Positions 8,901-35,926 of a stretch of 64,000 bases of DNA are shown in pieces. The DNA is from Rhizophagus irregularis. Lineage: Eukaryota; Glomeromycota; Glomeromycetes; Glomerales; Glomeraceae. Location of the stretch: contig NC_089453.1 of the NCBI RefSeq assembly GCF_026210795.1, positions 2,048,501 to 2,112,500 of the forward strand. The letters are read 5' to 3'. Position 1 is the stretch's first letter; every line of letters begins with the position of its first letter. A program made the position numbers and the translations under genes. The notes beneath the pieces are model-generated. The model did no database searches. It was given only the letters and a program-made list of their open reading frames with translations, and was not told the origin of the DNA.

Positions 8901-9031
8901 GTAAAATGTTTAATTTCATATTTCTGAAACTATATAAAACGAAAATAAATAAAGAATAAAATAAATAAAGAAAAGAAGATACAGTTAGGAAAACTTATTT
9001 TTCATACCCATTACACAATAACTCAAGACCC

Positions 9032-13661: not shown

Positions 13662-13829
13662 TTTGAAACGTGATAGAATTTATGTAACGATCTATTTTTA
13701 TAAACAATCACATAGTTTGTATTACATGATTGTATTAAATTTACGCATTAAAGTTAGAGGTTGTGTTACAAGATTGTGTATCGTTATTAGAGATGATATA
13801 ATAATGACAATATTCGTAATAATTATACT

Positions 13830-13995
13830 GATTGTATTATGAGCAATGGTTCACACAAAGCCATACTAATTGTTCAAAGCCTATTATGAGCAACGGTTCA
13901 TATAAAAGCCATAATAATTGTTCAAAGCCTATTATGAGCAACGGTTCATATAAAGCCATACTAATTGTATTAAGAGATTGTATTATGAGCAACGC
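13830..13995. repeat. Three imperfect ~47-bp direct repeats
   Basis: A unit around ATTATGAGCAACGGTTCATA followed by AAAGCCATACTAATTGTTCA repeats three times upstream of the transposase start. A partial fourth copy (ATTATGAGCAACGCTC) follows at 13981. It lies between divergent genes (transposase left, AT-hook gene right) and could belong to their control region. An ORF reading through it is a repeat product. Confidence 0.75.
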
Positions 13996-14572
13996 TCGTA
14001 CTGATGACCGATAAATTGAATCATTATATTTTATGTATTATTATCAATGAAGTTAATTTAACCGTGTTAATACTGACAAGAATGTAGTCCTAATACTTGT
14101 AATAATCTTTCATTAATAATTTCATAATATAATTTTCATGATATTTTTTTTCTTTATGACACCAACACTACAGTGAAATGCAAAAGTTATATTTAAAGGT
14201 ATAAACTCCCTCTCACCAATTGTTCGCAAGGCTCTCAATCAGTCAGAACCTAAAATAAAGTTATATCGGTTATTAGACATGTTTGATACTGGTCTCCTTA
14301 GTGTCCTCGAGCTGGGCTTTGATGCATAAACGAGTCATAATATATTATTCACAGGGGTAATGAGTCAGTTTTTGGAGAGGCACTTTGTTAGACCATCAGG
14401 ACAGAAAATCAGAAAATGGTGTCGAACAACTATAAATGGTATTTCGCGATCAATAAAAAATAAAAATAAACAACGCGTCAGTCGCGTCACGTTTAAGTAT
14501 AAAGTATAAATACATGCTATCTTTAGTGATTCTTCATTTCTTTACGCATTTTTTTAAAAAAATTTAAAAAAA

Positions 14573-15520
14573 ATGGAACAAACACCCGAAACTGAGGTAT
14601 AAAAGTAAAAATATAAAAATATTTTTAATAATCTATAATCAAAAATTCTTACTTTATTACTATATTATAGCTCAGGCCCATATATAAGCCTACGTCTAAA
14701 TATAATTTACAAGATGCGTTAGGATTAAAAAATGAAAAGCAACGCTGGCTTGCTTATTTGGTAACTATTTATTAATTTTTAATAAAAGATAAAAATTGTT
14801 TTTTAATAGTAAATTTTTGTAATAGGAGATAATGCGAGAATGTTTCTACGAAAAGAATGTAGATTTTACCGCCGATTATAGGAGTCAAAAGCATACAATA
14901 ACTGCACAAATAGTTCGTTCTGTAAATATTAAATTTTAATTTTCGTCATTTCTTTTTTTTTTGAAGTATACTAAAAATTATTATATTATAGTTTAAAAAA
15001 AAGGCTCCTGACTTCCCTATAACCGCAGCCGATTGGGCTGTAAAGGAGATGCTTGTTAGTACTATACAAAATAAACGTAAGTTAATAATAACTTTATTTA
15101 TACCTAGTTGGTTTATAGTAGAAATTAATTATTTCATTTTATTTATAATAGGCTATTATCTGAAAAAAAAAAAATGAATTAGAAAATAATTTAAGATTTC
15201 CACCACAAAATTCTCCAGCATTACAGGACCGTCCACCACCATCTCCTCAAGCACAACAAGATCCTCCTTCTCCAGTTGAGCCTTCTGATGAACAAGTTCA
15301 GATCCGGCCTCCAGTTGAGCCTTCTGATGAACAAGTTCAGATCCGGCCTCCAGAACCACGTACTGATGAACAAGTTCAGGTCCGGCCTCCAGAACCACGT
15401 ACTAATGAAAAAGTTCAAAGTGATCCTCCAAAAAGGGTCCAGAAACAACGTGTAAATGACAAAGAAAATCAAAATAATGTCCCCAAAAAAAGAGGAAGAA
15501 AAGCAAAATCAAGTAAATAA
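14573..15520 (+). CDS. Proline-rich repeat protein with C-terminal AT-hook-like tail
   Basis: Five exons, 14573-14596, 14671-14760, 14826-14921, 14992-15076 and 15183-15520, join in phase to 210 residues. The first ~95 residues are polar and unrecognised (YKPTSKYNLQDALGLKNEKQ, then EIMRECFYEKNVDF). The middle is a tandem repeat of EPSDEQVQIRPPV-type units (four copies). The end is basic with KKRGRKAKSSK, an AT-hook-like core. The last acceptor is the AG of TGAATTAG at 15175-15182: an earlier AG would run into an in-frame stop. The gene is divergent from the transposase in the same element, so an accessory DNA-binding role (TnpA-like, binding element ends) is a reasonable guess. No family is recognised. 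Confidence 0.65.
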
Positions 15521-15908
15521 ATAAACTTGATCTCGGAGATGACAATTTCTTCGTTCTTGTATAAAACGAATCATACATAGTTTTGACTTAATTAGTTCAA
15601 TAAATCTTGTTATGATAAACTATTGGTTAATTCATCTTCTCATACACTATATCAGTATTCGGCATTTCATTCGAATTAAATTAAAAATTTGAAGACGTTT
15701 AGATTACCTCCGCATAAATAATTTGAATTGTGTAACGCGTAATTTGTCCACGCCTCATTACGCAATGTTTAATTGTTCTAATCATTAATAAATAATCTAC
15801 ACACTATAAATTACTTTGATAAGAAATTTTACACATTTAATCTTTTTTGTTCTAAAAAATCGCTTAAATCTTATAAATACCTTTCCCTTCAATTATGATA
15901 ACTTACAA

Positions 15909-16416
15909 ATGAAGATGGTTCACAAAAGAAGTCAAAATAAATTACAAGAACGAAAAAATAAATCCTTTTCGAATAATAAAAGAAAAAGAGATAAGGTGAG
16001 TGAACACTTGAGAACCGCCTAGAGTGGTTACTAGGTTCGCCCGTAGTTTTTCAGATCTTTTAGATAGCTTTTTTTATTTTTTTTCTTCTATTTTTTATTT
16101 TTTTATTTTTTTATTTTTTTTTGGAGGGTTTAATAAAAGATGGAGTATATAATTGTATTCGGTTGTTATCTGGTTTCTAATTAAAAAATTGGTTTAGGTC
16201 AACTCTTTAAACGAAACAATTGAAAATAAAGATAAAGGTAATTATAAATTATTATTGTATAAATAATATATATCAATTACTAACATTTATTTAGAAATTA
16301 CACAATTAAAACGGCAAAAAACATTTGCCGTTGAATTATATCAACAAAAGTTAAACCAAATAATAGAAATAGAAAATAAATTAGAAAATAATTGCAAATG
16401 TATAGAAAATGAATAA
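15909..16416 (+). CDS. Small basic/coiled-coil protein, mini-bZIP-like (82 aa)
   Basis: Exons 15909-15995, 16198-16237 and 16295-16416 join in phase to 82 residues. The sequence begins MKMVHKRSQ, continues with a lysine/arginine-rich stretch ending NNKRKRDK, and then shows a heptad-like region (LNETIENKDKEITQLKRQ, later LNQIIEIENKLEN). This is the layout of a basic region followed by a zipper, though the canonical N-x7-R pattern is weak. It shares the MV-x-x-RSQ opening and overall plan with the next gene (17046-17642), so the two look like diverged paralogues. A nuclear DNA-binding or dimerising role is inferred. The short length leaves some chance that it is not a real gene. Confidence 0.5.
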
Positions 16417-16419
16417 TTT

Positions 16420-17045
16420 TGTTAATAAATTATATGTTATTATAATTCAGTTCTCCCAACTATTCTGTTCCCCAAAGAACTACGTGAAAAATTTTTTTTT
16501 GATGGGAGAAAAAAATGATATGTTCCCATATGAAATAAAAATGATATATCTTCCATACGAAACAAGTTTTGTGAGAAAAAAAATCATTTTTTCACGAGAA
16601 AAGGAGTTTGTCAAACAAGATCTGCTACTTTTACGTAATTACTAATAGCTCATTTATTTAATATTTGTATAATTTATAAAATAAAATACGAATACTGACA
16701 AAAAGTAAATTTTACTTTCAGTTAACAACCAGATCGGCATACTGTACTATTCCGATTAAAGTTTCTAGCACGTTGTTTGTAATTAATTTTGTACTTTTCT
16801 TTGTCCCCATTTTTCCCATTTCACAAAAAATTCATCAGATCTTATCGTTCTCGTGTATTTGCTAAAATCCTTCTTTTTGAAACATGTATTTTCTCACGCA
16901 TTTTTTCCTATATATACAATCCAATTACGTAAAAATTATTTTAAGTTTTCGTAACGTCTAAAACTGTGGTCTGCTTGGAAGGTTTTAGCCTGCCGAGATA
17001 GTTTTAATGATAGGAATAACTTTTAATTTATATAATAGATTCACG
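16420..17045. other. Intergenic; no supportable gene
   Basis: AT-rich sequence between the two mini-bZIP genes. The 78-codon ORF at 16409-16645 lacks splice or family support and overlaps the end of the previous gene. The stretch at 16690-17045 should hold the promoter of the next gene, but no clear element is seen. Confidence 0.4.
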
Positions 17046-17642
17046 ATGGTCAGACACCGCTCTCAACGTTCGAAGGAAAAACGAATTGCTCGCATTAAGA
17101 GCAAGAGAGGAAGTGCTCGTCAGGTAGTTGCAGGTGGGTTCCTCTCTATGATATCCTGGAGGCTTAGATTGTTCTAAAGAGGGCTTGTGGACGTTTGTCC
17201 TGAAATGATCCTGTGGACGTCTTTGGATTGTTCTAAAGGTGACTTGTGGACGTCTGTTCTAAAACGAATCTGTGGACGTCTAAGCGGTATCGGTGTCAAC
17301 CTAAGATGGAGAAACCCGCTTGGTCAAGCTGCGCATAGATCAAGTTAACCAATTTTTTTTCCCCCATTAGATTACATAAAGGAATTGGAAAAAAAGGTGC
17401 AGGAACTTCAAGAGCAAGTGAATGGTATAGATCGGGCTTACAGAGATGACCAGAGAGAATTGCTGCGGGTACATAATGAATTAAAGAAGGCAGAGAGGAA
17501 GTAAGTAATCAACTTTTTTGCTAATAAGTTTCCTTAAATTAATATAATTTTTCACTTTTATTTTATTAGGATTACTCGTTTAGAAGGGGAGGAAAGGGAT
17601 GAAGAAGGCCAAGAAAGAAGACAAAGAAGGGGACAGGGATGA
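17046..17642 (+). CDS. bZIP-like mini-protein (96 aa)
   Basis: Exons 17046-17133, 17371-17500 and 17570-17642 join in phase to 96 residues. The opening MVRHRSQ leads into a basic region (KEKRIARIKSKRGSARQVV) and directly into a zipper-like coiled coil (YIKELEKKVQELQEQV) that continues to about residue 75. The spacing resembles bZIP proteins (compare the SARxSRxRK...ELEKKVxEL pattern known in the family), but the invariant Asn is not in its usual place. It would act as a dimeric DNA binder in the nucleus. It lies inside the CACTA-like element with the same orientation as its paralogue at 15909-16416. Its first intron carries four TGTGGACGT(C/T) repeats whose core GACGTC is a typical bZIP target palindrome. 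Confidence 0.6.
17163..17280 (+). repeat. Tandem 59-bp duplication with four TGTGGACGTY sites
   Basis: Inside intron 1 of the bZIP-like gene a 59-bp unit is duplicated (about 17163-17221 and 17222-17280). TGTGGACGT(C/T) occurs at 17186, 17212, 17245 and 17271. Three of the four contain the perfect palindrome GACGTC. Alternate spacing is 26 and 33 bp. This could be an autoregulatory binding array; that is inference. Confidence 0.8.
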
Positions 17643-17764
17643 GGGAAAAGGGGAAACGTTGTTGTAAGTTGTAAATATTGACGTGCTTGGTAAACTAGTT
17701 TTAAGAATGAAGGATAAAATCTAGCGCAAAGAGTAGTGACAATACAAAGTGCAATAAAATTACA

Positions 17765-18580
17765 GGTATTGCGAATAAAATGACTAAAGAGCCAAAAGAC
17801 AGCGAATAAAATGACTAAAGAGCCAAAAGACAGAATGAAAAAAAGAAAGATATAAATGAATGTAAACGAAAATGATGCAGACCTAACCTGACATTATACA
17901 TTATATGTTATACTGTACGAACCCTGTTGTGATATTAAAGTCAATCGGCAAATATATATATATATATTTCAAATAAATCTTAATAAAAAAATCAACGTGT
18001 AACTGAATGATAAATTTTCTTTACCTGAAGATTTTTTTAGGTCTCCCGGTTCGTAAGACGAAAACGTCTAACGTAATGATTCAATTTATGATCGCATTGC
18101 ACATTGCGCAAGTTTAATAACCCACCTATTATTTTTTTTTATTTATTTATTATATATCTAATAATTATTTTCACACGAGAAAAAAAAATTTTTTGTCAAT
18201 CCTAACTGTTACATTCTGCTACCATCAAAATTGTCATTTTTTTTTTAGTGAGAAAATTTTTTATTTGCGGAAAAAAAATACCGAATGGGAGAAATGTGGA
18301 TGTTGCACAGAGTTTAATGTGTCACGCTAAGGTGGTGGAACATCATTATTATAACACAATTAAATCTTACGCGTGCACTTCCATTTTTGGTTCATCAAAT
18401 CCACTTTGCCATTAAAGTATAAATACACCGCTTCCATTAAAAGATGTAAAGATGTAATTCAATATCGAATTACATATTACGATTAATATGTCCAAACAAA
18501 AAAAAATCGAATTACATATTACGATTAATATGTCGCAGCAAAAAAGCCATGAAATAGAATTACATATTACGATTAATAAA
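17765..18580. repeat. Short direct repeats upstream of the 513-aa gene
   Basis: GCGAATAAAATGACTAAAGA followed by GCCAAAAGACAG is duplicated at about 17770-17831. Further on, GAATTACATATTACGATTAA occurs three times in about 18465-18580, within 230 bp of the start of the next gene. The rest of 17643-18693 is AT-rich without an ORF. The triple repeat is a candidate promoter element. Confidence 0.7.
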
Positions 18581-18693
18581 TTTATCAAAAAAAAAAATTA
18601 AAAATTCATTTTTTGGTTTTTCTTTCTCTAATTCTCTTCTTTTTTTAAAAAAATACTGAATTCTTTCTACCACCTTTATCGCAATTTTAAAAT

Positions 18694-20732
18694 ATGGACT
18701 CTTTAAGATCATTAAAAATACCAATTATCCAGCTGCAAAAAAGTATTTTACCTTATAATTTTGATTCTGGAGAACAACCCGAAACAGAACAGCCTGCAAC
18801 AGGTTTGCAAAGTTAATTATTTATTTTGTATCTAATTCTAATAAATCAATTAATATCTACTTCAATTTTGAATCAATATTTCATAATTGGATATATTTAA
18901 AGATAAACAAGAACCATTGGTCCTAATAATTTCTCCAAGTGTTACAAGTGACGATGGTTCTTTTGGTTCTCCTAGTGTCGGGGTTGGGGTTTCTGAAACT
19001 TTTAGTAATAATGGCACTAAAAAACCAAATATAAATAATGAATTTGACAATGATGATAGGAATGAAGAACAGGATCATGGTCAAGATTAGTTTTAAAATT
19101 AATATGATTTTATATTTAATATATGTGCGAACACGGTATAACAGTAATATTAAAGTTTATTAAATAGTTATTAATTAACACAATTTTATTTACAAAAAGT
19201 AAATTCCTTTTTTCTTATTTATATTTTATAGATGATCAAGTAAAAGTATTGGATACCAATACTGATGATGCTAACAAAGATTTTTGTAAGTTTCAATTTA
19301 TATCTTATAATCTTAGTAATTTAGAGCAAACAGTAATATTTAAATTTATGTTTATTATTTTCTATTTATTGTAATGTATAAGGTTCAACCCAAAAAAATG
19401 ATAAAAAAAGAACGAAAATTGGTAAATTTTCGCATTTTTTTTCTTACCTTGTTGATTAACAAAAGAGATACTTACTTTTTGTTATTTTAAATTATATTAG
19501 ATACCTCGATGCGTAAAAGGGCTAAACCGGGTATTGTATAATTCACAGAAAGTAAACTCTGAAACTTGAATTTGAAATAATATATATATTTTTCTTTAGA
19601 CGAAAAAATATTATTGGCCATTAATAAGATCGGAGGTCCCACAATAGATTCGTTATTATATTCATTGAGCAAATTGAAAAATACCGGAGTTAAAAGTGTA
19701 ACAATGAACTTGGTTAATAATAATATACGATTTATGGATTCCACAGGAACATTAGTGATAAAGCCAAATCACGTTAACTCCGATGATATAACAATTAATG
19801 CCAGTTTTCCTCATTATGATTATAATCAAGCCTCGGATCTCAGCTTCGAGGCAAATATTATCGAATTAAAGAAATTCAAAGAATTGGATATGGCAAGTAT
19901 AAGATTGGCGGAAGATTTGCATAAGCTGCTAGGTTATATTGGTAAATTGCCAAATAATCCACCTATACGTGATAGGTCAATCTTCAGTAAAAAAGAAGAG
20001 TATAGAGAAGCCCTCATTAGTCATTTGGAAAAGATTAATTCAACACAAGATTTTCAATCTTTTCGTGGTACTCAACGTATTAATTTGATTTCTGATGACA
20101 ATCAAAAAAGTTGCAGTTCTTTTAAAATTTTACCAATTCGTGTGCAAGAAAAGACTTCATCACTTACTGAATTATCTGATGAATTCAAGAAGATTGCAAA
20201 AGATTTATCGGAGGATATATTTTTATCCGTAATGGGAGAAGCAAATGAGCAAGGAAATAAAGAAATGGCCAGACGCAAGGAACTAAGGTTTCATGTCAGG
20301 TTTTTTAAGTCATACATACAATTACAGGCTTTTTGTGAGATAAACTTAAACAGAAAACAATCAGAGACGACAAAATCTCAAGCAAAAATATTAATTGCTC
20401 AATTTTACCCCTTAATTTCTTTACCGAATTTGGAATTGATGCTTCAGCGAGCACCACGTATATACAGGTTACTAGAAGTAGCCAATTTTGATTGGCGACT
20501 TTTAGATTCTTTCGAAGAATTAAGCGCATGTTTTTTTAAGAGTGGAGTAAAGACGGCAATTAACTTTGAAATATGGATCAATTTGGTCCGTACAGGCAAG
20601 CTGATTAGTTATGACGAAGAATTAAAAACTCAAGAAAGAAATAGGGAAAACAAGAGGATTAAAATTGAAATTATTAAGGAATATTTTGATATTTCAGGGG
20701 TTAATTTTGACGAGATGGTTGGTAATGAGTAG
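18694..20732 (+). CDS. 513-aa protein of unknown function, six exons, nuclear type
   Basis: Exons 18694-18802, 18903-19079, 19232-19285, 19383-19421, 19501-19530 and 19600-20732 join in one frame to 513 residues. The exon 2 donor is the weak GTCAAG at 19080; the alternative would run into a stop. The first ~135 residues are acidic and low-complexity. A basic cluster (KKRTKIDTSMRKRAKP) resembles a bipartite nuclear signal. The remaining ~380 residues are globular, with IDSLLYSLSKLKNTGVKSV and SLPNLELMLQRAPRIYRLLE stretches. I recognise no domain. A broken second copy lies inverted at 23880-24640, with an exon 2 fragment at 24692-24830, so the gene has moved or duplicated inside the element. 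Confidence 0.65.
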
Positions 20733-21129
20733 GTAGTAAACAGAGAAAAAAAAATTTTTTTGCAGTCAAATAGTTTTGCATTATAATTAGAATGAATTTA
20801 TATTATAATGATAAAAAATGGACTCGAAAAGCGTTGCAACCTCCAGATTTATAAATTAGCATTATAAGTAATTTAGTAATTTTACATGAATAAAAGGCTA
20901 AATAATATGCAATCTTTTATTGTTTGCGCATTCTAACATTTGCTAAATAAACTTGCTATAATTGCTATCGTTTACTATCATAAATAAATAAATAAATAAA
21001 TCAATTTGTGGCTTAGCCTATTTTTACATGAAAAAAACTCCAATATGTTATTTATGTATACGTTTTTATGTATCTAAAAAATTAAATGTTAATTAATGAT
21101 CTAGTTTAAAATTTTAAATTTATAATATT

Positions 21130-21435
21130 AAACATACCGTCCCATATTTTATTCTCTTTTTCTGCTGTTATTTCAAATTCCTCAAAACCATCATACTCTT
21201 CAGAAGTACCACTTTCTGTCTCTGAATTATCATTATCATAATTATCAATGATCTTAAAAGGTCCATAATCATAATCATCAAGAATTTGATCATCGCTAAA
21301 GTAATTATTAGGAAAATGTAAGTTATATTTTTTATTATAAATAATCGATCAATTACCTTTTAGATGTATCTTCTAACACTGAAGGAAATGGAACATCAAA
21401 GCTTTGATTATTACTGTCACTAAAGTCATATTATA
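21130..21435 (-). pseudogene. Remnant of a second CACTA transposase (exons 1-2)
   Basis: On the minus strand this region reads like the end of exon 1 and all of exon 2 of the transposase at 10053-13661: a VLEDTSKR-like exon end, a GT-AG intron of about 100 bp, then the acidic block SDDQILDDYDYGPF...SETESGTSEEYDGFEEFE. Nothing of the catalytic part follows, so it is a fragment. It suggests that the element grew by nested insertion or duplication. Confidence 0.6.
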
Positions 21436-21439
21436 ACAA

Positions 21440-22396
21440 CAATTAGTAAATTAGTAAAAGTAATTTTTACTTTTAGCAATGACAGTACGATATATTAGCT
21501 AATATTTTAGGAGGTATAATGATAATTTTAATTATTCGTAGATAAAGTAAAAAAATTGACTATGCTGATTTTAAATAAGGGCAATTTTAACAAATAAGGG
21601 AAGGTTTTCACTTTGACAATCTCAATTTAGTGTAGCGAGAGGTCCCTGACAATAGGAGAAATAATGGTAAGACAACAGTAAAACAAAAATTTTAAAAACA
21701 TTGATGAAACTTACCGAAAGTTCATCATTCCAAAAATATGTTTTTCTTTCATATTTACCTAAAGTCCATTCCAAAGTCCAGATGTTCTGATTCTAAAAAC
21801 GAAAAAACGTTAGTTATAATATTTTTAATATAAATACATTTACACCTAATTACCTGAAAGGCCGTTCCAAATGGTTTTTTCTTTCAAGTATCTATATAGA
21901 AGGAAGACATAAAATAGAGTAATAGATTGATTAATATACGTGAAGTATGAGTCTTCAGAAATAAAAATCAGCAAAAACAATGTGTATAAATAAGATAGAA
22001 CAAGTATTGATATGCGCCCAGTCTTAAGCCGCAGGATCCTCTTCAAGAAAATTTTATTTTCTAGAAGAAGAAACCTGAGTCTTGGACGATACCAATCCTA
22101 TGTATGCGCTTAGTTTTAAGCCGCATGATTCTCCTTAAGAGAAGAAACCGAAAATAACTTAACAATTAATAAATTAAAATTTAACTATGGGCATAATACT
22201 GGTGTAATGATGAAAAGATTGATGACATAGTAAATCATGTAAAATTTCTTTTTAGGTCATATTAACGAGGATTTTTTTTCCTTTTTTATGTATTCAACCG
22301 CAATATGGAGAATCGTGTGAAATTTCTTAATGAACTGCAAATGCTTTTAACTCTCTTTTTTCCTTTTTTTTCAACATCCAATTTTATATCGTAAAC
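21440..22396. other. Spacer with duplicated ATGCGC...TTAAGCCGCA motif
   Basis: No gene is supportable. A motif ATGCGCYYAGTYTTAAGCCG occurs at about 22013 and 22106. GGCCGTTCCAAA at 21858 resembles the terminal sequence of the TIR element at 53902-54950. This is possibly a decayed insertion plus the upstream region of the LRR gene. Confidence 0.4.
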
Positions 22397-23626
22397 ATGG
22401 ATATCTTGCCAGAAATCGACTTAAGTGAGAACAGAATTACGAATAATACAATTGACAAACTAATCGAAACGCTTAAAACTACCAAGTTCAAGGTTAACCT
22501 TATTATACAAATTAAGATATATTTTAAATATAAATCTAAAGTTTTTATTTGAATTAGAAATTGAACCTCGAGAGTGTCTTCACTAAAAATAACAAACAAG
22601 AAACCTTTGAAATTTTGAGAAAAATATGCGAAGTAATTAAAGAAAGCACAAATTTGGAAGAACTGATAATTAGTAAAAATGCACTAGGAAAAAGCGGTGC
22701 AAAGGCGTTAAAAGTTTTTTTAACTAATAATGTTAATTTAAAGCACTTGATAATCGACGACGCGGGGTTAGGCGAAGGAGGTACAGTTATATTAGAATCG
22801 TTATTGAATTCGAGAAGGAAAACTTCTTATTTAGAAACATTTTCAATAAAAGAAAATGTTTTAGGAAAACAGTGTTCCAAACTGCTTTCTATGGTTCTAC
22901 ATAAACATAAAATTACACTAACAAAAGTAATTTTGTCTCGAAACAGCTTTTATAACTCAGATCTTTGTCGAATAATAGAGTCTTTAAGTTTGTGTAAGAA
23001 GTTACAAATTATTAATCTCGAAGATAATTTTTTTCACTAAAAAAACATCGAAAATGCTTAGTCGATCTTTGGCTAACTGGCCGGATTTAAAACAACTAAT
23101 AATTAATGATTGTTTGATATGTAAAAAAGGTGTTATATATATTTTAGAGGCATTATTAAAGGGTACCAATAAAAATATTGAATATCTGGGGTTTCAATAT
23201 TGTAGTATTGATGAGAATGGGTTCTATACTTTGGCAAGTATAATTAAAAAAAGTCTAATGTTAAAAGTGGTGGAAATCAATAGGAATTATTCGATTAAAA
23301 AAAAATGTATGTCAAAGCTAAATTTGGTCTCTAAAAAAAATGGAACCTTGATAAATGGATTTGATGATTTAATTAACGAAGATGATGAGGGAGAAGAAAA
23401 GGAGGGAAAGGAAAAGGAGGGAAAGGAAAAGGAACTGGACGATAATGAGGTAGAGGAAATTCATAATGACATGAAAGGAAAAGGTCATGATGGAAAGGAG
23501 GGAAAGGAGGAGGAGGGGCTGGACGTAGAGGAAGAGGAAGGAGACTATGATGAAAAGGAGGGAAAGGAGGAGGAGGGGTTGGACGTAGAGGAAGAGGAAG
23601 GAGACTATGATGGAAAGGAGGAGTGA
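22397..23626 (+). pseudogene. RanGAP1/Rna1-like leucine-rich-repeat gene, frameshifted
   Basis: Exon 1 (22397-22492) joins at GTTAAC...GAATTAG to exon 2 (from 22558). The frame reaches a stop at 23038-23040. Removing one T from the seven-T run at about 23028-23034 would continue it to a stop at 23624-23626. The whole carries RanGAP-type LRRs: NLEELIISKNALGKSGAKAL, LKHLIIDDAGLGEGG, LQIINLEDNFF, then WPDLKQLIINDCL and the acidic tail typical of RanGAP (EDDEGEEKEGKEKEG and two near-identical acidic units). RanGAP stimulates GTP hydrolysis by Ran and sustains nuclear transport. The position matching the FTGR loop, which I recall as carrying the catalytic Arg, here reads FTKNN, so activity is doubtful. 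It is a captured cargo gene of the CACTA-like element. A homopolymer sequencing error cannot be excluded. Confidence 0.7.
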
Positions 23627-23879
23627 CTGATGATGAAATCATGAGTTTTATAATAATAATAAGATAGTGCCATAGTACAGTTGCGATTTTATCGTAAAAT
23701 TAAAATATTTTGTATATATTGTGCCAGCTGGCAACTTAATAAACATCCCATGACTTTAAATTTTAGCTGAAAAGTTAATTGAACGAATAATTTACTTACA
23801 TTAATTATTCTACGTAAAAATCATTCATAATTTTTTATTTATTTTTTTTTTACATTTTATAATATAAAATTATAAATTC

Positions 23880-24640
23880 AGTCTAATGTGATAAATCGGA
23901 TACTATTATTAACCAAATTCATTGCTACACTTTTAACTCCAGTTTTTTTCAATTTGCCCAAAGAATAGAATAATGAATCTATAATAGGATCTCCAATATT
24001 ACTAATAGCCAATAAACTTTCTTTGTCTAAAGAAAAAAATATATATATATTACTTCAGATTCAAGTTCACAAGTTTTGCTTTCTGTTAATTATACAATAC
24101 CCGGTTTAGTCACTTTTTTACATATCGAAGTATTGCCTAATATAATTTAAAATACCAAAAAGTAAATATTACTTTTGTTAATCAACAAAGTAGAAAAAAA
24201 ATACGAAATTTTACCGATTTTCACTCTTTTTTTATCATTTTTTAGGGTTGAGCCTTATATAGAAACAATAAACATAAATTTAGTATTATTGTTTGTTCTA
24301 ATTATTAAGATTATAAGACATAATTTGAAACGTACAAAAATCTTCGTTAGTATTATTGGTATCCGATATTTCTAATATTTCTACTTGATCATCTATAAAT
24401 AAGTAAAGAAGAATTTTACTTTTTGTAAATAACAAAAGAAACGATGAAAAAGAACTACCATCACTTTCCCTAACATGTTTTTTGTTTGAATTTCCTTCGA
24501 TATCTCGCGATGCTTATAATATAAATATGAAAATTGGATTAATAACTTTATAATAATTATACATAACAAAATCTCAATATTACTGCTATACCGTGTTCGC
24601 CTATATATTAAATATAAAATCATAGTAATTTAAAACTAAC
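23880..24640 (-). pseudogene. Inverted, broken copy of exons 3-6 of the 513-aa gene
   Basis: Read on the minus strand, 24640 down to 23880 follows the same order as 19090-19745: the intron with CGAACACGGTATA, exon 3 (GATGATCAAGTAGAAATATT), the TAAACCGGGTATTGTATAAT block, and the beginning of exon 6 (ATAGATTCATTATTCTATTC). It stops in the sequence matching 19745. Frameshifts and substitutions are frequent. It is an inverted duplicate within the same element. Confidence 0.8.
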
Positions 24641-24691
24641 CTTCAGAAAGACTTTACCAACCGTGCTATTAAGATTAGAAAGATCGATATT

Positions 24692-24830
24692 TTTAAAGAT
24701 AATCCAGAACCATTTGTCCTAATAATTCCTCCTAGTATTACTGGTGGTGATGGTCCTCCTGGTTCTCCCGGTGGCATTGTTTCTGAAACTTTTAGTAATA
24801 ATGCACTAATAAAAAACAAAATAAAAATAA
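24692..24830 (+). pseudogene. Exon 2 fragment of the 513-aa gene family
   Basis: GATATTTTTAAAGATAA, then CCTAATAATTCCTCCTAGT and GTTTCTGAAACTTTTAGTAA, match 18893-19020 in the plus orientation. It borders the inverted exon 3-6 copy, so one original copy has been broken and partly inverted around 24640-24690. Confidence 0.8.
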
Positions 24831-25089
24831 TGAAAATAATGAACTCTAACTTGGCATCGAAATCTATAATTATGAAATATTGATTCAAAAAAATTGATAT
24901 AAAATTCGATTTATATTGCCACACATTTTATTTTTTGTTTTTTTTTGTTCTCATTTTTTACCTGCACAATTCTTGCATTTGTCTTTAGTTTTTGACATCT
25001 TTTTTCAAAAAATAATTCGTGTCTTTTAAAGAAAGAAAGAAATTTAGTTTATAAAATTAAATAATCTAATTACGTTATTTTATTTAATT

Positions 25090-25535
25090 TTTTGCCGATC
25101 GAAATATTCATGTACTCGATCAGAATATTTTAAGGACACATCATCACATACCAGGTCATTTGTGAAACCGATACGAATAGTATATAGTCCTTCCCGGAAT
25201 ATTTTAAAATATTACAATTCGAAACACTATTTTAAATATCCATTTGTACAATTTCAGTATATTTTAAGAATATTATATTAACATACCTAAATTACTGATA
25301 AATTACTTTTAAGGATATTTTCCATATCTAATCAGAATATTTTAAAATACCAGTCAATATTACATTTAAAAATTAAGTATATTTTTCGTATAATTTAAAC
25401 TTATTTATTATTATAGAACACTATTTTAAATATACTGTTCGTACAAATTTCAGTATATTTTAAGAATATTATTACTATATAAGGATATTTTAACCATAAA
25501 ACTAGTACAGTTTAAGGATGTAGACTTTTTATAAG
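25090..25535. repeat. Right subterminal region of CACTA-like element
   Basis: CAGTATATTTTAAGAATATT occurs at about 25256 and 25461, with related AAGGATATTTT and GAATATTTTAA motifs between. Inverted relatives occur at 8270-8650. The element ends ...GACTTTTTATAAG at 25535. Confidence 0.55.
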
Positions 25536-25540
25536 GCTAC

Positions 25541-25549
25541 GGCATTACA
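25541..25549 (-). repeat. 3' LTR of gypsy element, last nine bases
   Basis: GGCATTACA, identical to the end of the intact LTR at 35918-35926. It is separated from the rest of the LTR by the 17.3-kb insertion. Confidence 0.9.
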
Positions 25550-25890: not shown

Positions 25891-26256
25891 TTATCTACTC
25901 ATCGGCGTATGGTAGATTTTTAATAATTCTCCATTCACAGGTGTTTTCTTGATTACACCCTTAATATCTTTAATTTTGTAGGCTCCATTTGGTAGTATTT
26001 CATGAATGTAAAATGGTCCCAACCATTTTGATTCCAATTTTCCAGATAATTGTTGTGCTTTGGCTTTATCATAAAGTAATATTTTATCTCCAATTCCAAA
26101 GGTATGTTCTTTAATTATTTTTCTGTCATGATACTCTTTTTGTTTTATTTGAGATTTTAATATTTGTTCTTTGGCTTCATATCGGATTTTTGGTAATTCT
26201 TCTAATAATCCAACTATTCTATCACTTAGGTTGATTTCTTTGATATCTTCATCCAT
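25891..26256 (-). CDS. Integrase C-terminal domain (after in-frame UGA)
   Basis: 121 residues in the same frame as the kinase-integrase ORF, separated from it by one UGA (26296-26298) and a 13-codon open stretch that reads PFYLTYRRN, the usual continuation of a gypsy integrase core. KILLYDKAKAQQLSGKLESK and WLGPFYIHEILPNGAYKI form the GPY/F-type C-terminal domain, which binds DNA and protein in target choice. A stop at 25891 ends the reading frame. The first ATG is probably not a real start: the protein would be made only by readthrough, or the copy is dead. Confidence 0.85.
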   Translation of the reverse strand: MDEDIKEINLSDRIVGLLEELPKIRYEAKEQILKSQIKQKEYHDRKIIKEHTFGIGDKILLYDKAKAQQLSGKLESKWLGPFYIHEILPNGAYKIKDIKGVIKKTPVNGELLKIYHTPMSR

Positions 26257-26295
26257 TATTGTCCGTACATTTCTTCTATATGTTAGATAAAATGG

Positions 26296-27675
26296 TCAAA
26301 TTTTTGTTGAACTGTGCTTTTTATTTCTATAAGCGAATAATATGGGTGCTATCTTTTGATCCCAATCATCCTTAGTTGATAATTTTGCTAATGCTTGACC
26401 TAATGTTCGGTTGAATCTTTCAACCAATCCATTTGTTTCTGGATGGTAACTGGTAGAAAAATTCCATTTTATCCTGAATTTTTCCATTAATTCTTTAATC
26501 ATTTCATTGTTAAAGTGACTTTCTCTATCACTCAATATCTTCATTGGACATCCATGTCTACAGATGATGTCTTCATAAATAAATTTTGATACTTCTTTAG
26601 CGGTTGCTTCTTTTACTGCCTTAGCTTCTGGCCATTTTGTGAAGTAATCCATTGCCACTATAATATATTTATTACCATTTATTGTTGTGTTCAATGGTCC
26701 AACAAAGTCAATCCCAATTTGATACCATGGTTCTATTACTTTAATTGGGTGTAATTTGTTTTTCCCTTGTGGTTTTCCTCTCCTTTGGCATTCATCACAT
26801 GTCCTTACATATCTTTTAACGTCATTCAACATATTTTCCCAATAATATTTATCTTTTAAATTATCATAAGTGCTTTTAATTCCCATATGTGCTGATAATT
26901 CATGACTGTGAGCTAAATATAGTGCTCCCATCTTTTCAAAATGTTCTATTATCCTGATATTTCTACTATTTTTCTCTATATACTTTTTACCATCAATTAT
27001 CTTGATGTTGTTGTCCTTAATTTCGACACTTTTAACTTCCATTGGTGGTTTATTACCATCTAATTCTATTATTTTATTATATACTTTTTCCCAATCTGTG
27101 TTATTGTTTGATATCTTAATATTGGCATATTTTCTTCCTTCATAAATGTCTTGACATCTTTTGAATGACTCCACCATTTCCATATATCTTTCTTCATTTA
27201 ATAGTGGGTATGATGTTTTATGTCCTTGATCCTTTTTCAAGTATTCTCTATTTCTGTAATTTTCCCAACATTTTTCATTCTCCAAAAATATCACTATTGA
27301 TTTGTCAATTATCCTTTTATTTCTAAATATTTCCTTTTCCAGTAAGTGGTTCTCATATCTTGATATGTATCCTCTATCAAATGATGGTGTCTGTTGATAA
27401 AAGTACTCACTATAGGGACTTTTATCTAATATTAACCAATCCTCATTACTATGTTCTTCTATTCTTTTGTTGATTTGTTCAACGATTTCCTTCCTAAATT
27501 CCCATTCTATACCTTTCTTTGGTATTTTATACTTATCATTATCTTCTCTTTTTCTTCTAAAGGTGTTAAACCTCACACTTTGTCCTGCTTTCTCAAATTC
27601 TTTTATAAGTTTATTTACGATGGTTGTTTTCCCCGTACCATCAACTCCACATATGATTATTATTTTAGGTTTCAT
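26296..27675 (-). CDS. P-loop nucleotide kinase-like domain fused to gypsy integrase
   Basis: One 459-residue ORF. Residues 1-205 resemble thymidylate or deoxynucleoside kinases: P-loop G10VDGTGKTT18, D84KSPYSEYFYQ in the place of the family's DR-S-YS motif, a basic lid-like region near 135-150, and a long C-terminal helix region. Residues 256-459 are integrase: zinc motif H258, H263, C293, C296 and catalytic D323 (GIDFVG), D383 (LSDRESHF) and E419 (LVERF), with 35 residues between the last two. The kinase is where a linker or RNase H tail usually ends. Such a kinase could raise dTTP supply for reverse transcription; this is inference. The start ATG overlaps the TGA of a short upstream frame. 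Lys85 in place of Arg is a possible defect. The ORF ends at UGA within the integrase core. Confidence 0.85.
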   Translation of the reverse strand: MKPKIIIICGVDGTGKTTIVNKLIKEFEKAGQSVRFNTFRRKREDNDKYKIPKKGIEWEFRKEIVEQINKRIEEHSNEDWLILDKSPYSEYFYQQTPSFDRGYISRYENHLLEKEIFRNKRIIDKSIVIFLENEKCWENYRNREYLKKDQGHKTSYPLLNEERYMEMVESFKRCQDIYEGRKYANIKISNNNTDWEKVYNKIIELDGNKPPMEVKSVEIKDNNIKIIDGKKYIEKNSRNIRIIEHFEKMGALYLAHSHELSAHMGIKSTYDNLKDKYYWENMLNDVKRYVRTCDECQRRGKPQGKNKLHPIKVIEPWYQIGIDFVGPLNTTINGNKYIIVAMDYFTKWPEAKAVKEATAKEVSKFIYEDIICRHGCPMKILSDRESHFNNEMIKELMEKFRIKWNFSTSYHPETNGLVERFNRTLGQALAKLSTKDDWDQKIAPILFAYRNKKHSSTKI

Positions 27676-29423: not shown

Positions 29424-29927
29424 TTATACTTTAAAATTTTCATTTTCATAATTCTCATAATCATCTTCATATATGTTGTATAATTCATCTTGGTATAATT
29501 CATCTAATAATTCATCTTCAATTAATGTTTCTTCGAATCCTTTGATGGTCTTTTGTATATATTTTACTGGTACATCCATGGTTTCATCATCCATTCTAAG
29601 TATTATTGTTTTATCTGTGTAATCTATATTCGCCTTAAACATATCTAATACTCCATTTCCTAACACAATTTCATTCTTTCCAGAATCAATTACTTCGACC
29701 TTAATGGGTATCTCCTTATCCCCAAACTGTATGTATATTGTTGTGGTACCTCTTGATGCTACTTTATCCTCATTTATCATCACACATCTTACTGTACTTG
29801 GTTCTTCAATTCTTAGGTCCATTTCATCCATTATTTGACTAGTTATTACATTTACTGCTGCTCCTGTATCAAACATTACATCCTTCGATTCTTGATTTAT
29901 TATTAGTTTACCCCTTAATGCTGTCAA
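29424..29927 (-). CDS. Gypsy aspartic protease
   Basis: 167 residues. The protease signature is DVMFDTGAAVNVITS (residues 16-30, catalytic Asp20 in DTGA), with IVLGNGVLDM near residue 110 in the place of the second conserved motif. It cleaves the Gag-Pol polyprotein. It follows the second zinc-knuckle segment in the same frame after a UGA followed by CUA (29964 region), and ends with an acidic DELYQDELYNIYEDDYENYE tail and TAA at 29424-29426. The ATG used here may not be the true start. Confidence 0.9.
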   Translation of the reverse strand: MTALRGKLIINQESKDVMFDTGAAVNVITSQIMDEMDLRIEEPSTVRCVMINEDKVASRGTTTIYIQFGDKEIPIKVEVIDSGKNEIVLGNGVLDMFKANIDYTDKTIILRMDDETMDVPVKYIQKTIKGFEETLIEDELLDELYQDELYNIYEDDYENYENENFKV

Positions 29928-29963
29928 ATGTTCAGCTTCAATGTTATTTATTGGTTCTTGTAG

Positions 29964-30542
29964 TCAATCTACTTGTGGATATCTTCTCATACCATCATAA
30001 TATATTTTTCTTTGTTCTGGGCTCATATCTATAATTTGTGAAAAAGTTGCATTTGCTCTGGTACTTTTCATATCCTCTAATACGTTATATTTTGGTATAT
30101 TTCTTTGAAATGCGCTTGTCCTATGAATACCTTCAACACGTTCATTTTTACATTCTGATGCATAGTGACTTTTTTGTCCACAATTTCCACATGTATTATT
30201 ATTTCTCTTTGTTTCCTGAGCTTTTCTCAAACTCTCACTGGTAAATCCCCTTTTTGGTAATGCTGCTGCCTTATTCTGTTGACTGGCATATTTATCATTT
30301 CTTCTGCGTGCCTGTTCTCGATCAATTTCCATATCTATATCTCAATCACTTGACCTATTTTTTATATTACTCCTTGTTTGTCTTGGATTATTATAAAAAT
30401 CTTGGTCAACATGGTTAAATACTACATCATTGTTTTGGTAATATGGGTCACCATAATTGTATTCTTGGTCATAATCATCTTGATAATCTTGGCCATCGTA
30501 ATCGTATTGGTCATTGTAATCATTATAGTTATCAAATTCCAT
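29964..30542 (-). CDS. Gag continuation with second zinc knuckle, UGA-interrupted
   Basis: Two ORFs in one frame, 30542-30342 and 30332-29964, separated by a single UGA, and in the same frame as Gag upstream (UGA at 30555) and protease downstream (UGA at 29964). The first part is Asp/Tyr/Asn-rich (YNDYNDQYDYDGQDY). The second has a CGNCGQKSHYASEC knuckle (CX2CX4HX4C) like the nucleic-acid-binding end of Gag. The chain of UGA codons is either readthrough or decay. Confidence 0.75.
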
Positions 30543-30554
30543 TGTATTAAATCC

Positions 30555-33545
30555 TCAATTATTATTTTGGTAATTTGGTAGTCTGTTATAATTATTTGGT
30601 CTTCCATTATAATTATTTGGTCCTTTATTATAATTTTGGTTGTTCGGTCTTCTATAGTTTGCTTGACCATTATTTACTCTACATTCCCTTGCATAATGTC
30701 CTGGTTGTTGACATTTATAACATACTCGCAGTGGTTGTCCTTGTCTATTATTATTTGATGGTCTCTTTTGTCCACTAAGTTGGTTTGTCAATTTTACCTC
30801 TAATTTTTTAAACATCTCGGTAAGGTCATCCTCATAATTTTTCTCCAATGGTTTTTCAAATATATTCTTTGGCTTGTCATCCTGTATATCAATTCCTTTT
30901 CTTTGGGTACTAACTGGTATATTAAGTGTTTTTCTCATTAATTCATTAGTAGCTTCCTCCTCTCTTCTTGCTGTATTCACTGCATCATTTAAATTTGCTG
31001 GGTTTTGTCTTCTGACTTGATATCCCAATACTGGTGTTAATCCTTCGATATAATTATCCACTTGTAATTCATTATCTAATACATGGCCTCTGGTAGCTAT
31101 CCTTAATATTTGTCTAAACCTTATCATATATGCCTCAACATTTTCATTTACTCCTTGTGTTATTTTCCTTAATTCTAACATTTTCCTTTTTCTAACATCT
31201 TCCCTGGTAAATCTTTGTTTAATCCTATGTTTTAAATCATCATCATTATCGTTATCTTGCCAATTTACCAAATGACCATTGTTTGCTTCCTTCTTTTCAT
31301 TATACCATTGTGCTGCTGCACCTTTCAAACAGGTAGCTGCCATTGCTGCTTGTCTGGCTCCATTTACTCCTGCTGCTTTTCCTATAGCAGTAAATGCTGT
31401 TTCAAATTGTCTTACCCAATCGTTTACGTCTTCTTCTTCCTTTCCATAAAATTGTGGCATACTAATTATTCCTCCAGCTACATTTCCTGCATCCTCAATT
31501 GCATTTGCTAATGGGTTGGCTGCGACTAATCCAGCCCAATTACCTCCTATATCATGTCCCGTTGCTGCTAGTAAAGCCGCTCTAAAATCTTCCCTTACTT
31601 CAGCTCTTGTTGCTCCCATAATTATTGGTACTATTGGTGGGATTGGTGGTATTGGTGGTGTTAAAGGTGTTTCAAATAAATTTTTTATATTATAATCAGG
31701 TATTTCACTTTTATCCTCAGAATTTGATTCTGAACTTTCACTTGAGCTAAAGTCAGGTCTATTTATAATGTTTTCTTCATAAGGTTCTCCAAAATTTTCA
31801 TTGTTATCACTTTCATTTGGATTTAAAATTTCTCCATCTTTTCCAGATCCATCTGATTTATTTTCAGACCCATCCGATTCTTCATCATCAGATTTATTTC
31901 CACTACTTTCACTATCCTCAATTCCAGCTTGCTGTTTTAGAAATTTGTCTAATATCCGCCTTAAATTTTTCTCCACTTCATTTTTATTTCCTTGGAATAT
32001 TTCAATAAATTCTTGATTCAATATTTCTCCATCAGTATATCTCATACTAATTAACCTCAATAACTCTCCATCAGTTATTTCTACTCTAATATCATCACAT
32101 ATTTGTTTTAATCTTTTGACCCTGATATCAATTTCATTTTCGTCATTTTCACAATCCCTACACTTGGTTTTTCCTTCGTCAAATTTATTGTTTATCCATC
32201 TTATTCCACATTCATTACAAAATGTGGTATTTTCATTTATCCATTCATGTAATTTTATCCTTAATTCTTTGTCATTCGTATCAATTTCCTGGAAATATTT
32301 TTCCATAAATTCCGTTGTTAATATTATACTATTGCTTATCCTGAATTCTCTTATTCTCTCTATTTCTGACACATTTAATTCGTATCCTAGTTTTTCTAAG
32401 TCATCCTTTAATTTTAATAATTCTTTTTGTTCGCAATTTTTACATTGTCCAATGTCTGTTATCATATCAGGTAACTTTCTATTTCTACAATTTCCACATA
32501 TTAATGTTTCTTTCGTTAACCATTCATTTATTTCATCTTTTAATTTTTCATTACTTAGTCCCATTAGTTCGAAAAATGTACCTAAAAAGTCTTCTGTTAA
32601 TATCAATTCTATCCTTATTTTTAGGTCCCACATTCTTTGTATATCTTTGTCAGTGAACCTTCCACCCATTTCTTCAATTTTTCTTTTTAATAATTCCACT
32701 GTCCATTCGACATTGTCCTCTATTTTTATTTCATAACCTATACTACCATCACTGTCCTCTAATTCATAACTTTCAGGACTAGCACTTTCTGGGTCTTCAG
32801 GTTCCCTTGTAAATTGTTTGGTGTCAATAAATCTTTGTAACACTTTCTGTATCAATCTTTCCCATTCTTGTTGTTTTGATTCTTCCTTTCCTAATGAGTT
32901 TCTGTAAACAATTGTATTCGTTAAATCAATTACTTTTCTTATATTTTCAGTTATGGTTTCTTCCATGTATAATAATTTCCTGAATATTACTATCGTTTCT
33001 GGTGTCGCATGGATTACTTCCACCCCAAATTCTAATATTGAACCGTACCATTCCCAAAATTTTTGAAATCTGTTTTCAACATCCCAATCTTCCAAAATAT
33101 ATCCATGTTCCATTATTTCTGGACATCCAATTAACCGGTCAAATATTTCATTTTCTAAATTTCCTTCAATACAATCCCTTACAATTACTACAATTATTAT
33201 TCTTAAACCTTTTTCTTTCATTTTTGGTTGTTGTCTGTACCTTATTAATTCAATTATTCTATCTACTATATTCCTACATTTTCCTTTATGTATTGTATCC
33301 TCCCTTTCTCTATTGTCCATACTTAATAAATTCAATAATTCTTTATGTGTTACATTATTGTACATTAGTATTGTATCCTCAAATTTAAATAAAGCATCCC
33401 AAAATTTCTTGAATGCTGCTGATACTTCTCTTTCTATTGGGTTACATATTTCACATGCTAAACATTCCTCTGGTTCTATCACTCCTAGGTCATGTTCTTG
33501 TTTATGGTTTATATATTCAGCGTTCCAAACATGGTACCATTCCAT
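30555..33545 (-). CDS. Gag with large zinc-ribbon repeat extension (996 aa)
   Basis: The C-terminal third is a normal gypsy Gag: PQFYGKEEEDVNDWVRQFE, a capsid-type region with LRKITQGVNENVEAYMIRF, and the knuckle CYKCQQPGHYAREC near residue 930, followed by an Asn/Tyr-rich tail. The first ~590 residues are unusual. Residues about 275-550 hold three tandem modules of ~90 residues, two of which end in paired cysteines (CGNC...CKNC and CNECG...CRDC), like zinc ribbons. An early CLACEIC is another cysteine pair. An acidic Ser-rich linker (SSESSESNSEDKSE) separates extension and capsid. Gag forms the particle and packages RNA. The role of the extension is unknown. The frame runs on after UGA at 30555. 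Confidence 0.85.
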   Translation of the reverse strand: MEWYHVWNAEYINHKQEHDLGVIEPEECLACEICNPIEREVSAAFKKFWDALFKFEDTILMYNNVTHKELLNLLSMDNREREDTIHKGKCRNIVDRIIELIRYRQQPKMKEKGLRIIIVVIVRDCIEGNLENEIFDRLIGCPEIMEHGYILEDWDVENRFQKFWEWYGSILEFGVEVIHATPETIVIFRKLLYMEETITENIRKVIDLTNTIVYRNSLGKEESKQQEWERLIQKVLQRFIDTKQFTREPEDPESASPESYELEDSDGSIGYEIKIEDNVEWTVELLKRKIEEMGGRFTDKDIQRMWDLKIRIELILTEDFLGTFFELMGLSNEKLKDEINEWLTKETLICGNCRNRKLPDMITDIGQCKNCEQKELLKLKDDLEKLGYELNVSEIERIREFRISNSIILTTEFMEKYFQEIDTNDKELRIKLHEWINENTTFCNECGIRWINNKFDEGKTKCRDCENDENEIDIRVKRLKQICDDIRVEITDGELLRLISMRYTDGEILNQEFIEIFQGNKNEVEKNLRRILDKFLKQQAGIEDSESSGNKSDDEESDGSENKSDGSGKDGEILNPNESDNNENFGEPYEENIINRPDFSSSESSESNSEDKSEIPDYNIKNLFETPLTPPIPPIPPIVPIIMGATRAEVREDFRAALLAATGHDIGGNWAGLVAANPLANAIEDAGNVAGGIISMPQFYGKEEEDVNDWVRQFETAFTAIGKAAGVNGARQAAMAATCLKGAAAQWYNEKKEANNGHLVNWQDNDNDDDLKHRIKQRFTREDVRKRKMLELRKITQGVNENVEAYMIRFRQILRIATRGHVLDNELQVDNYIEGLTPVLGYQVRRQNPANLNDAVNTARREEEATNELMRKTLNIPVSTQRKGIDIQDDKPKNIFEKPLEKNYEDDLTEMFKKLEVKLTNQLSGQKRPSNNNRQGQPLRVCYKCQQPGHYARECRVNNGQANYRRPNNQNYNKGPNNYNGRPNNYNRLPNYQNNN

Positions 33546-33710
33546 TTTTAATAAAATTCTCTAAAAATTTTCACGTCTTTTACTTTTTATCCCTTTTTAT
33601 ATTTTATTTGACCTATACTGGGCTTGCCTTTACCTCATTTGTTCATTACTGAGTATGGTAGTTTACAGGTTTGTACAAATAAATTTATATTTTTCCTTAA
33701 AATTCCCAAC

Positions 33711-35184: not shown

Positions 35185-35200
35185 CTCGGAGCATGCACCA
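35185..35200 (-). other. Primer binding site, tRNA-Gly type
   Basis: Two bases inside the 5' LTR the coding strand reads TGGTGCATGCTCCGAG. Its complement CTCGGAGCATGCACCA is a plausible tRNA 3' end: T-stem, acceptor AGCATGC, discriminator A, CCA. The acceptor matches GCATGCT of the tRNA-Gly-like copy at 25594-25654, which identifies the primer as a tRNA-Gly. Confidence 0.8.
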
Positions 35201-35202
35201 CT

Positions 35203-35926
35203 TGTAACACCTATGCCCGTGATAATCACATTGCCACCATAGGTATTAACAAAATATCTCTTTATTAATAATATAAATAAATACAATAATATGCTTGGTC
35301 TAATACTGTTAAATAATAAATAAATAATTTATATCAAAATTCCAAAATGCGATAATTTTCCCATATTAGTAATCTTTGATTCCATTATTTTACTTAATGT
35401 GGCAATTTTTCATCACCAAAAAAAAAATAAATTCAAGTTATTATTTTTATTAAGATGAATTATAATACTTAACCATTTTTTTATTTCTTAAAGTCTGGGG
35501 TTCTCCTCCTTTTTGAAAACCCAAATATCACGACTATTTAAAGGAATTCAGATTTATAATTTACCTCCTGGATTATGATTCCTAATTTTAATTCCATTAC
35601 CTTAAAAGTATTTCCATTGTGTCAAAATAATTCCATTATTCTGTTTCGGTATCCATCTGATCGTCATTAACTTCTTAATTATGCTTTGTAATATTTTTCT
35701 CTTAATGATCTACTCGGATCATCATTTATCCTTAAATCACCTGTTAGTTTAATGTCATCCCAGACCAATTATCCTTGATTCTCATGATTAATAGTTTAAC
35801 GACTTTTCGGTCCAATTAATAAAAAAAAAAATGAAACTAAAAATAAATTAAATTTTATATACTAAGATTAAATATAATACTGCGCCTCACAATTATCAAA
35901 TTTACTAGGTATGCTACGGCATTACA
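35203..35926 (-). repeat. 5' LTR of gypsy element (724 bp)
   Basis: Complete LTR, TGTAACACC...GGCATTACA. It contains the promoter and start of transcription for the minus-strand genes, but no TATA box can be singled out in the AT-rich sequence. It differs from the 3' LTR at four bases. Three are CG to CA on the plus strand, consistent with loss of methylated CpG. Confidence 0.95.

Follow-up and report, generated by a model that had tools for sequence, protein, structure and literature searches.

A 64-kb stretch of the Rhizophagus irregularis genome (contig NC_089453.1), referred to below as the window, harbors a Ty3/gypsy retrotransposon in which a nucleotide-kinase-like domain is fused to the integrase. 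As the first-pass annotation of this DNA had stated, the fusion is encoded by one uninterrupted open reading frame (ORF) of 459 codons; it lies on the minus strand, starts with an ATG and is listed at 27675..26296, and the same reading frame is already open from 27702, upstream of the kinase ATG. The two kinase motifs pointed out at that stage, GVDGTGKTT and DKSPYSEYFYQ, are present in an N-terminal P-loop domain, in which the Pfam P-loop match starts at residue 3 of the ORF (AAA_28, E 2.5e-6; Thymidylate_kin, E 2.4e-4, below cut-off). Further downstream, Pfam matched Integrase_H2C2 at residues 252-300 (E 9e-18) and the rve core at residues 321-412 (E 1.7e-9). The integrase core had been described as complete, and both of these domains are indeed there, but a stop codon at 26298..26296 truncates the integrase at its C-terminus. 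Among the 34 further close copies listed in the genome, 22 have the corresponding frame open over 600-615 amino acids, compared to 459 in the window. The features of the element, in its own direction of reading, are as follows.

35203..35926, minus strand: 5' long terminal repeat (LTR), TGTAA...TTACA, with CTGT flank
35185..35200, minus strand: putative primer-binding site, beginning with TGG, 2 nucleotides past the 5' LTR
30558..33560, minus strand: Gag frame, 1001 amino acids, with Retrotrans_gag domain and CCHC knuckle
29967..30341, minus strand: C-terminal part of Gag with CCHC knuckle, the Gag frame being broken upstream here
29961..29966, minus strand: Gag/protease junction, TGA CTA stop context
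29427..29963, minus strand: aspartic protease frame, 179 amino acids
27952..29430, minus strand: reverse transcriptase (RT)-RNase H frame, 493 amino acids, its stop lying within the 276 nucleotides that separate RT from the kinase ATG
27064..27675, minus strand: kinase domain, residues 1-204, with P-loop GVDGTGKT and DKSPYSEYFYQ, predicted thymidylate kinase/deoxynucleoside kinase fold
26299..27063, minus strand: zinc domain (H2C2) and rve core of the integrase, in frame with the kinase (PF17921, E 9e-18; PF00665, E 1.7e-9)
26296..26298, minus strand: stop codon truncating the integrase frame in this copy
25894..26295, minus strand: rest of the integrase C-terminus, an open frame beyond the stop, with what we take to be a GPY/F-like stretch
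25537..25549, minus strand: first 13 nucleotides of the 3' LTR, between a purine-rich tract and the nested insertion
8257..25536, no strand assigned: 17.3-kb insertion that splits the 3' LTR and has GTAG at each edge
7544..8256, minus strand: remainder of the 3' LTR, followed by CTGT

The domain order Gag-protease-RT-RNase H-integrase is that of Ty3/gypsy elements, and the RT_RNaseH, RT_RNaseH_2 and H2C2 profiles scored above cut-off and Ty3_capsid below it, the class assignment being made from domain order and LTR structure. The LTRs have TG..CA ends, and CTGT at both outer ends represents the target duplication. Over 715 aligned columns, the long part of the 3' LTR shows 99.16% identity with its 5' counterpart, while the integrase carries a stop, Gag is broken and the 3' LTR is interrupted by an insertion; this copy is thus fairly young but decayed. 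Intact versions of the frames broken here were found elsewhere in the genome. The GC content of the window varies between 0.19 and 0.36 along its length.

Fold and family of the kinase domain

Residues 1-204 of the 459-residue ORF served as the kinase query. Their structure was predicted with a pLDDT (predicted local distance difference test) of 91, and the best fold matches were nucleotide and nucleoside kinases, including both the thymidylate kinase (TMK) and the deoxynucleoside kinase folds. Profile searches gave a full-length match to the TMK family PHROG 761 (residues 1-195, E 1.7e-14), which was matched by 14 of 14 members of A1, the kinase set used for profile tests. All 14 also matched TIGR00041, the NCBIfam dTMP kinase, at E 0.01, the window domain showing the best E value with 29.8 bits compared to a threshold of 83.25, and the named families matched in PHROGs and NCBIfam were mainly TMKs. 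The Pfam TMK profile, PF02223, gave 25.8 bits for the window kinase against a cut-off of 27; one of five relatives scanned whole passed (P0034, 30.2 bits), and over the genome 38 matches were obtained at E 0.1, of which 34 lay at or adjoining kinase sites, as judged by eye, two of these exceeding the cut-off. The deoxynucleoside kinase profile, PF01712, was absent from the families that A1 members matched at E 0.001, and its one match over the genome at E 0.1 was a probable host gene and no copy of the element. Searches of PDB sequences hit mostly P-loops, among them that of FtsY. Kinship with the P-loop domain of Crinklers was considered and set aside, since profiles and fold pointed to TMK and deoxynucleoside kinases.

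We then looked at the residues expected of such an enzyme. The domain shares with phage and cellular TMKs the fold, a P-loop aspartate (D12, as in the GLDRTGKT of yeast TMK), a D-(K/R) motif and a lid-side arginine, D84 and R143 aligning with conserved positions of phage TMKs. In an alignment of 62 rows, in which the window is counted twice, K16 was found in 60, D84 in 61 and R143 in all 62, and each of the 21 genomic copies read had all six of the positions checked. In contrast to the DR(Y/H) motif of TMKs, the sequence reads DKSPY, lysine replacing arginine in 61 of the 62 rows, with a gap in the remaining one. The domain also differs from TMKs in being joined to retrotransposon proteins and in being only 24-28% identical to the phage TMKs listed. 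According to the predicted model, it belongs to the TMK/deoxynucleoside kinase fold and, by sequence, is nearer to TMK.

Copies, fusion partners and selection

The genome (146.7 Mb, 32 contigs) was searched with the kinase domain, giving at least 151 matches; 150 of 179 candidates were scored, and the following counts refer to the 150 matches listed. Thirty-five, including that of the window itself and one partial copy, are close matches and form branch A, the 34 others being 86-91% identical to the window and the best of them 91% over all 204 residues. A further 97 are 43-59% identical, 96 of them covering about 190 residues or more, and the remaining 18 are shorter fragments. Near-full-length copies lacked an internal stop in 122 of 130 cases (33/34 in branch A and 89/96 among the others), and the matches are spread over 30 of the 32 contigs. 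Among the 88 RT matches listed (of 369 candidates), 86 had the kinase within 6 kb downstream; in the other two, a same-strand kinase lies about 15 and 9 kb away, distances that would fit insertions. Judged by LTR pairs, identical over 624 bp in copy L015 and 99.2% identical in the window, the lineage has recently been active.

Twenty copies, picked mostly by score and long frames, were fetched (12 of branch A and 8 of a second branch, B) and read together with the window. In all 21 the kinase sits at the RNase H/integrase junction, and the anatomy is regular, with exceptions. The fetched branch A copies have a Gag of 1199-1224 amino acids, a protease of 179 (11/12; shorter in L017), and an RT-RNase H of 493 (11/12; broken in L014). 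Their kinase-integrase frame measures 600-601 in eight of the 12, and 435-503 in L009, L010, L014 and L015. Counting the stop, the spacing between RT and the kinase ATG was 38, 39, 92, 268 and 276 nucleotides in five branch A copies, the last being that of the window. In branch B, the kinase shares open frames of 706-779 amino acids with RT-RNase H in six of eight copies (L022-L027), L021 and L028 having RT-kinase frames of 626 and 674 that are damaged upstream, and a separate integrase frame of 316-414 amino acids follows in seven of eight, L026 having none of at least 120. The fusion to integrase seen in the window recurs in the fetched branch A copies, but is replaced in the eight fetched branch B copies by a fusion to RT-RNase H. 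Between L021 and L027, RT is nearly the same (synonymous divergence, dS, 0.078), while the kinase is far apart (dS 1.23) and integrase has a dS of 0.64; because of this discrepancy, the kinase and other modules seem to have been swapped between elements.

Relatives were also sought outside this genome, by searches that reach proteins sharing short words with the query and falling within set length ranges. Named organisms were available for 32 of 102 relatives, and all were R. irregularis, R. clarus, R. diaphanus or Glomus cerebriforme (Glomeraceae), so that the kinase does occur in related fungi, as had been asked; the other 70 came from metagenomes or sources without an organism name, and two further sets (14 and 35 proteins) contained no additional named organism. 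The closest proteins, at 89-90% identity, are named R. irregularis DAOM 197198. One predicted protein of R. clarus (P0014) combines the kinase with RNase H and the zinc domain of integrase, and in P0034 of R. irregularis, the relative exceeding the Pfam TMK cut-off, the kinase is fused to integrase. Pattern matches to A1 in viral contigs (IMG/VR, 120) and in bacterial and archaeal genomes (GTDB, 102) were in no case confirmed by tblastn, and tblastn against phages returned 55 distant records, the 20 listed being all annotated as TMK at 24-28% identity (best E there, 9e-4). A one-off chimera or assembly join, one of the worries attached to the first-pass annotation, is ruled out by the many copies, the regular anatomy and the relatives in other species.

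We monitored selection by Nei-Gojobori counts of the ratio of nonsynonymous to synonymous divergence (dN/dS) in 16 chosen pairs, the values being rough for deep pairs, where dS is about 1 or above. For the kinase, dN/dS was 0.06-0.27 in 15 pairs and 0.59 in the sixteenth, which has seven changes in all. The same pairs gave 0.03-0.26 for RT and 0.00-0.98 for protease, and 15 pairs gave 0.06-0.37 for integrase. When six of the kinase pairs were submitted to Fisher tests, P values ranged from 1.9e-5 to 2.7e-25. These substitution counts show purifying selection on the protein sequence of the kinase, like that on RT and integrase.

Not all related elements carry the kinase. It was found within 2.5 kb upstream of integrase in 91 of the 150 integrase matches listed (268 candidates; like the kinase count, a lower bound), and 59 had no kinase match in that interval. 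The integrase zinc profile was used to fetch 20 loci, and no kinase was detected in 19 of them by hidden Markov model at E 0.001. Seventeen of these constitute family C, in which the main pieces of RT have 56-65% identity with RT of the window, about as distant as branch B, and two (L045 and L047) a more distant family. No kinase was found in two further gypsy families either (L049 and L050). In L049 (C11:1392300-1395500), RNase H is followed by a different, cysteine-rich extension, about 300 residues long by eye, at the junction that the kinase occupies in branches A and B. Branches A and B were grouped in the RT tree with weak support (52/69) and not grouped in the integrase tree, for which an approximately unbiased test did not reject the grouping (p 0.086). 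Support for B as one group was weak in the RT tree (36/31); the integrase tree splits B, placing L025 beside C, and an earlier FastTree run had kinase-free C adjoining A. The trees are thus compatible with loss of the kinase in C as well as with its absence there from the start, and with B being one clade or several. Since stops already divide RT from integrase in one C copy (L038), the kinase may have entered a gap of this kind between split RT-RNase H and integrase frames and then become fused to either neighbor, which is integrase in branch A and RNase H in branch B.

Possible role of the kinase in reverse transcription

By the usual view, retroelements rely on the deoxynucleoside triphosphate (dNTP) pools of their host. 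Thymidylate kinase turns dTMP into dTDP, on the way to dTTP; dUTPase, a dUTP pyrophosphatase, has a fold unrelated to P-loop kinases. In the literature examined, no nucleotide-metabolism enzyme other than dUTPase was named as part of Pol. Retroviruses with dUTPase, mentioned in the first-pass annotation, include the non-primate lentiviruses, where the enzyme lies between RNase H and integrase, is critical mainly in non-dividing cells and produces dUMP, the substrate of thymidylate synthase (PMC4531489). Like the dUTPase of feline immunodeficiency virus, equine infectious anemia virus and visna/caprine arthritis encephalitis virus, the window kinase would be a dTTP-pathway enzyme placed in Pol in the RNase H/integrase interval (PMC4531489). 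The lentiviral enzyme, however, is released from one Gag-Pol polyprotein of a retrovirus, whereas here a P-loop kinase is found in the split Pol frames of a fungal retrotransposon. Acquired nucleotide-metabolism domains are also known in Pol of fungal gypsy elements (PosPlaTy3, Phanerochaete, Tuber Tmt1), but these are dUTPases, located at either end of Pol or between protease and RT, and the word kinase is absent from the available text (PMC2864245). Similarly, LTR retrotransposons of bdelloid rotifers carry extra enzyme modules, including captured ORF3 enzymes, but these are GDSL esterase, DEDDy exonuclease and dUTPase, again with no kinase in the text available (PMC5408684). With an extra dNTP-pathway-like domain in Pol under selection, the window element matches the description of the dUTPase-type modules. 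By profile, the host genome has one dUTPase-gene-like place, and no dUTPase-bearing element was seen in it. Gypsy is among the transposable element superfamilies having families upregulated in colonised roots (PMC11075540).

We consider it likely, with a probability of roughly 0.6, that a Ty3/gypsy lineage of Glomeraceae gained a TMK-like kinase at the RNase H/integrase junction and that this kinase supplies dTTP precursors. For this lineage, the kinase domain, its position, its many copies in several species, its selection and its predicted fold are established, in support of the initial interpretation of a retrotransposon Pol with a nucleotide-kinase-like domain. As to the enzymatic role, we infer an active (deoxy)nucleoside monophosphate kinase, dTMP being its likeliest substrate. 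Fused to RNase H or integrase, the kinase would come to the particle as one of the products of Pol, and it might be carried into the virus-like particle or accompany the reverse-transcription complex. There it could relieve a shortage of dTTP precursors while host DNA synthesis is off, in spores and non-cycling nuclei, playing a part analogous to that of non-primate lentiviral dUTPase one stage later in the pathway. Supply of dNTPs is the leading explanation by analogy, because of the dUTPase parallels in Pol position and the adjacent step in the dTTP pathway.

Among the other explanations, the kinase might be a deoxynucleoside kinase turning salvaged nucleosides into monophosphates, which would serve the same purpose from another substrate; we regard this as unlikely, given that PF01712 matched no element copy, that the P-loop aspartate is that of yeast TMK and that the named family matches are mainly TMKs. 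Still less probable is phosphorylation of a nucleic acid or tRNA, such as the 5' end of the RT product or the primer tRNA, in place of free nucleotides. Such a substrate would suit a neighbor of RT and integrase, and KTI12, presumably related to tRNA kinases, exceeded its Pfam cut-off (24.9 compared to 22 bits); however, this match is limited to residues 5-89, while nucleotide or nucleoside kinases account for the family match at full length and for the best matches by fold, and D84 and R143 align with conserved phage TMK positions. We would give a similarly small chance to a domain that has lost catalysis and serves Pol structurally, by binding ATP or in assembly: the different fusion partners in branches A and B and the existence of a related family without kinase speak for it, but the near invariance of K16, D84 and R143 and the joint presence of the six positions in every copy read speak against it. 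Finally, LTR elements capture genes at random, and the kinase could be a passenger carried without use, or an assembly join; the number of copies and their spread over 30 of the 32 contigs, the two types of fusion, the presence in several species and a dN/dS well below 1 make this hardly credible.

Returning to dTTP supply, we advance more tentatively, as a stronger claim that we hold to be possible but short of probable, that the kinase is a Pol subunit making dTDP on site in the virus-like particle for reverse transcription in non-cycling multinucleate hyphae and spores, that this is the first nucleotide-kinase-encoding retroelement within the literature searched and that it represents a second, independent solution beside retroviral dUTPase. 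The first-pass annotation knew of no gypsy element with a TMK- or deoxynucleoside-kinase-like domain, and our literature search, whose scope left out most subscription journals and all bioRxiv preprints, likewise found no kinase-bearing LTR retroelement. The kinase would thus add a new accessory enzyme to elements of a known kind, suggesting that such elements help to provide their own raw material for DNA synthesis. Because it sits at a dUTPase-like position in Pol, is strongly selected and exists in many copies, limitation of retrotransposition by dTTP becomes directly testable by means of a small soluble kinase domain. These findings also suggest that Rhizophagus and metagenome proteins tagged 'thymidylate kinase', 'enzymatic polyprotein' or 'hypothetical' are parts of one transposon lineage.

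Translation signals and minor features

A single stop, TGA followed by CTA, splits Gag from protease in 13 of 13 branch A copies (the window and L009-L020) and 6 of 6 branch B copies (L022-L027) inspected, the sequence immediately 5' of it differing between the two branches. UGA CUA is a leaky-stop context, so that Gag-Pol is probably made by stop-codon readthrough, conserved in this fungal gypsy element; a literature search on such readthrough found nothing. In the window copy, the RT frame is -1 relative to that of protease, and no classic slippery heptamer was seen by eye at their overlap. ARAGORN detected no tRNA in the window, and a 12-base primer-tRNA pattern, ill-matched to the site, gave 3 matches compared to 6 for the control.

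Within the Gag frame at 30558-33560, about 700 residues with repeated cysteine-pair (CxxC) stretches precede Retrotrans_gag, with no Pfam match above cut-off there. A 235-residue minus-strand frame lies between the 5' LTR and Gag (33714-34418); it is also present in L019, and the other 11 fetched branch A copies have no counterpart of 120 amino acids or more. The 17.3-kb insertion is probably a large DNA transposon, and may resemble Plavaka/CMC. It contains a DUF4218 fragment at 10653-11201 on the minus strand (E 8.5e-4) and an LRR_6 match at 22561-23040 on the plus strand (E 3.5e-4), both below cut-off, together with a 372-residue ORF at 19614-20732 on the plus strand without Pfam match. Acidic low-complexity repeats (EGKEEEGLDVEEEEGDYD) at 23054-23642 close an open frame adjoining the LRR-like one.
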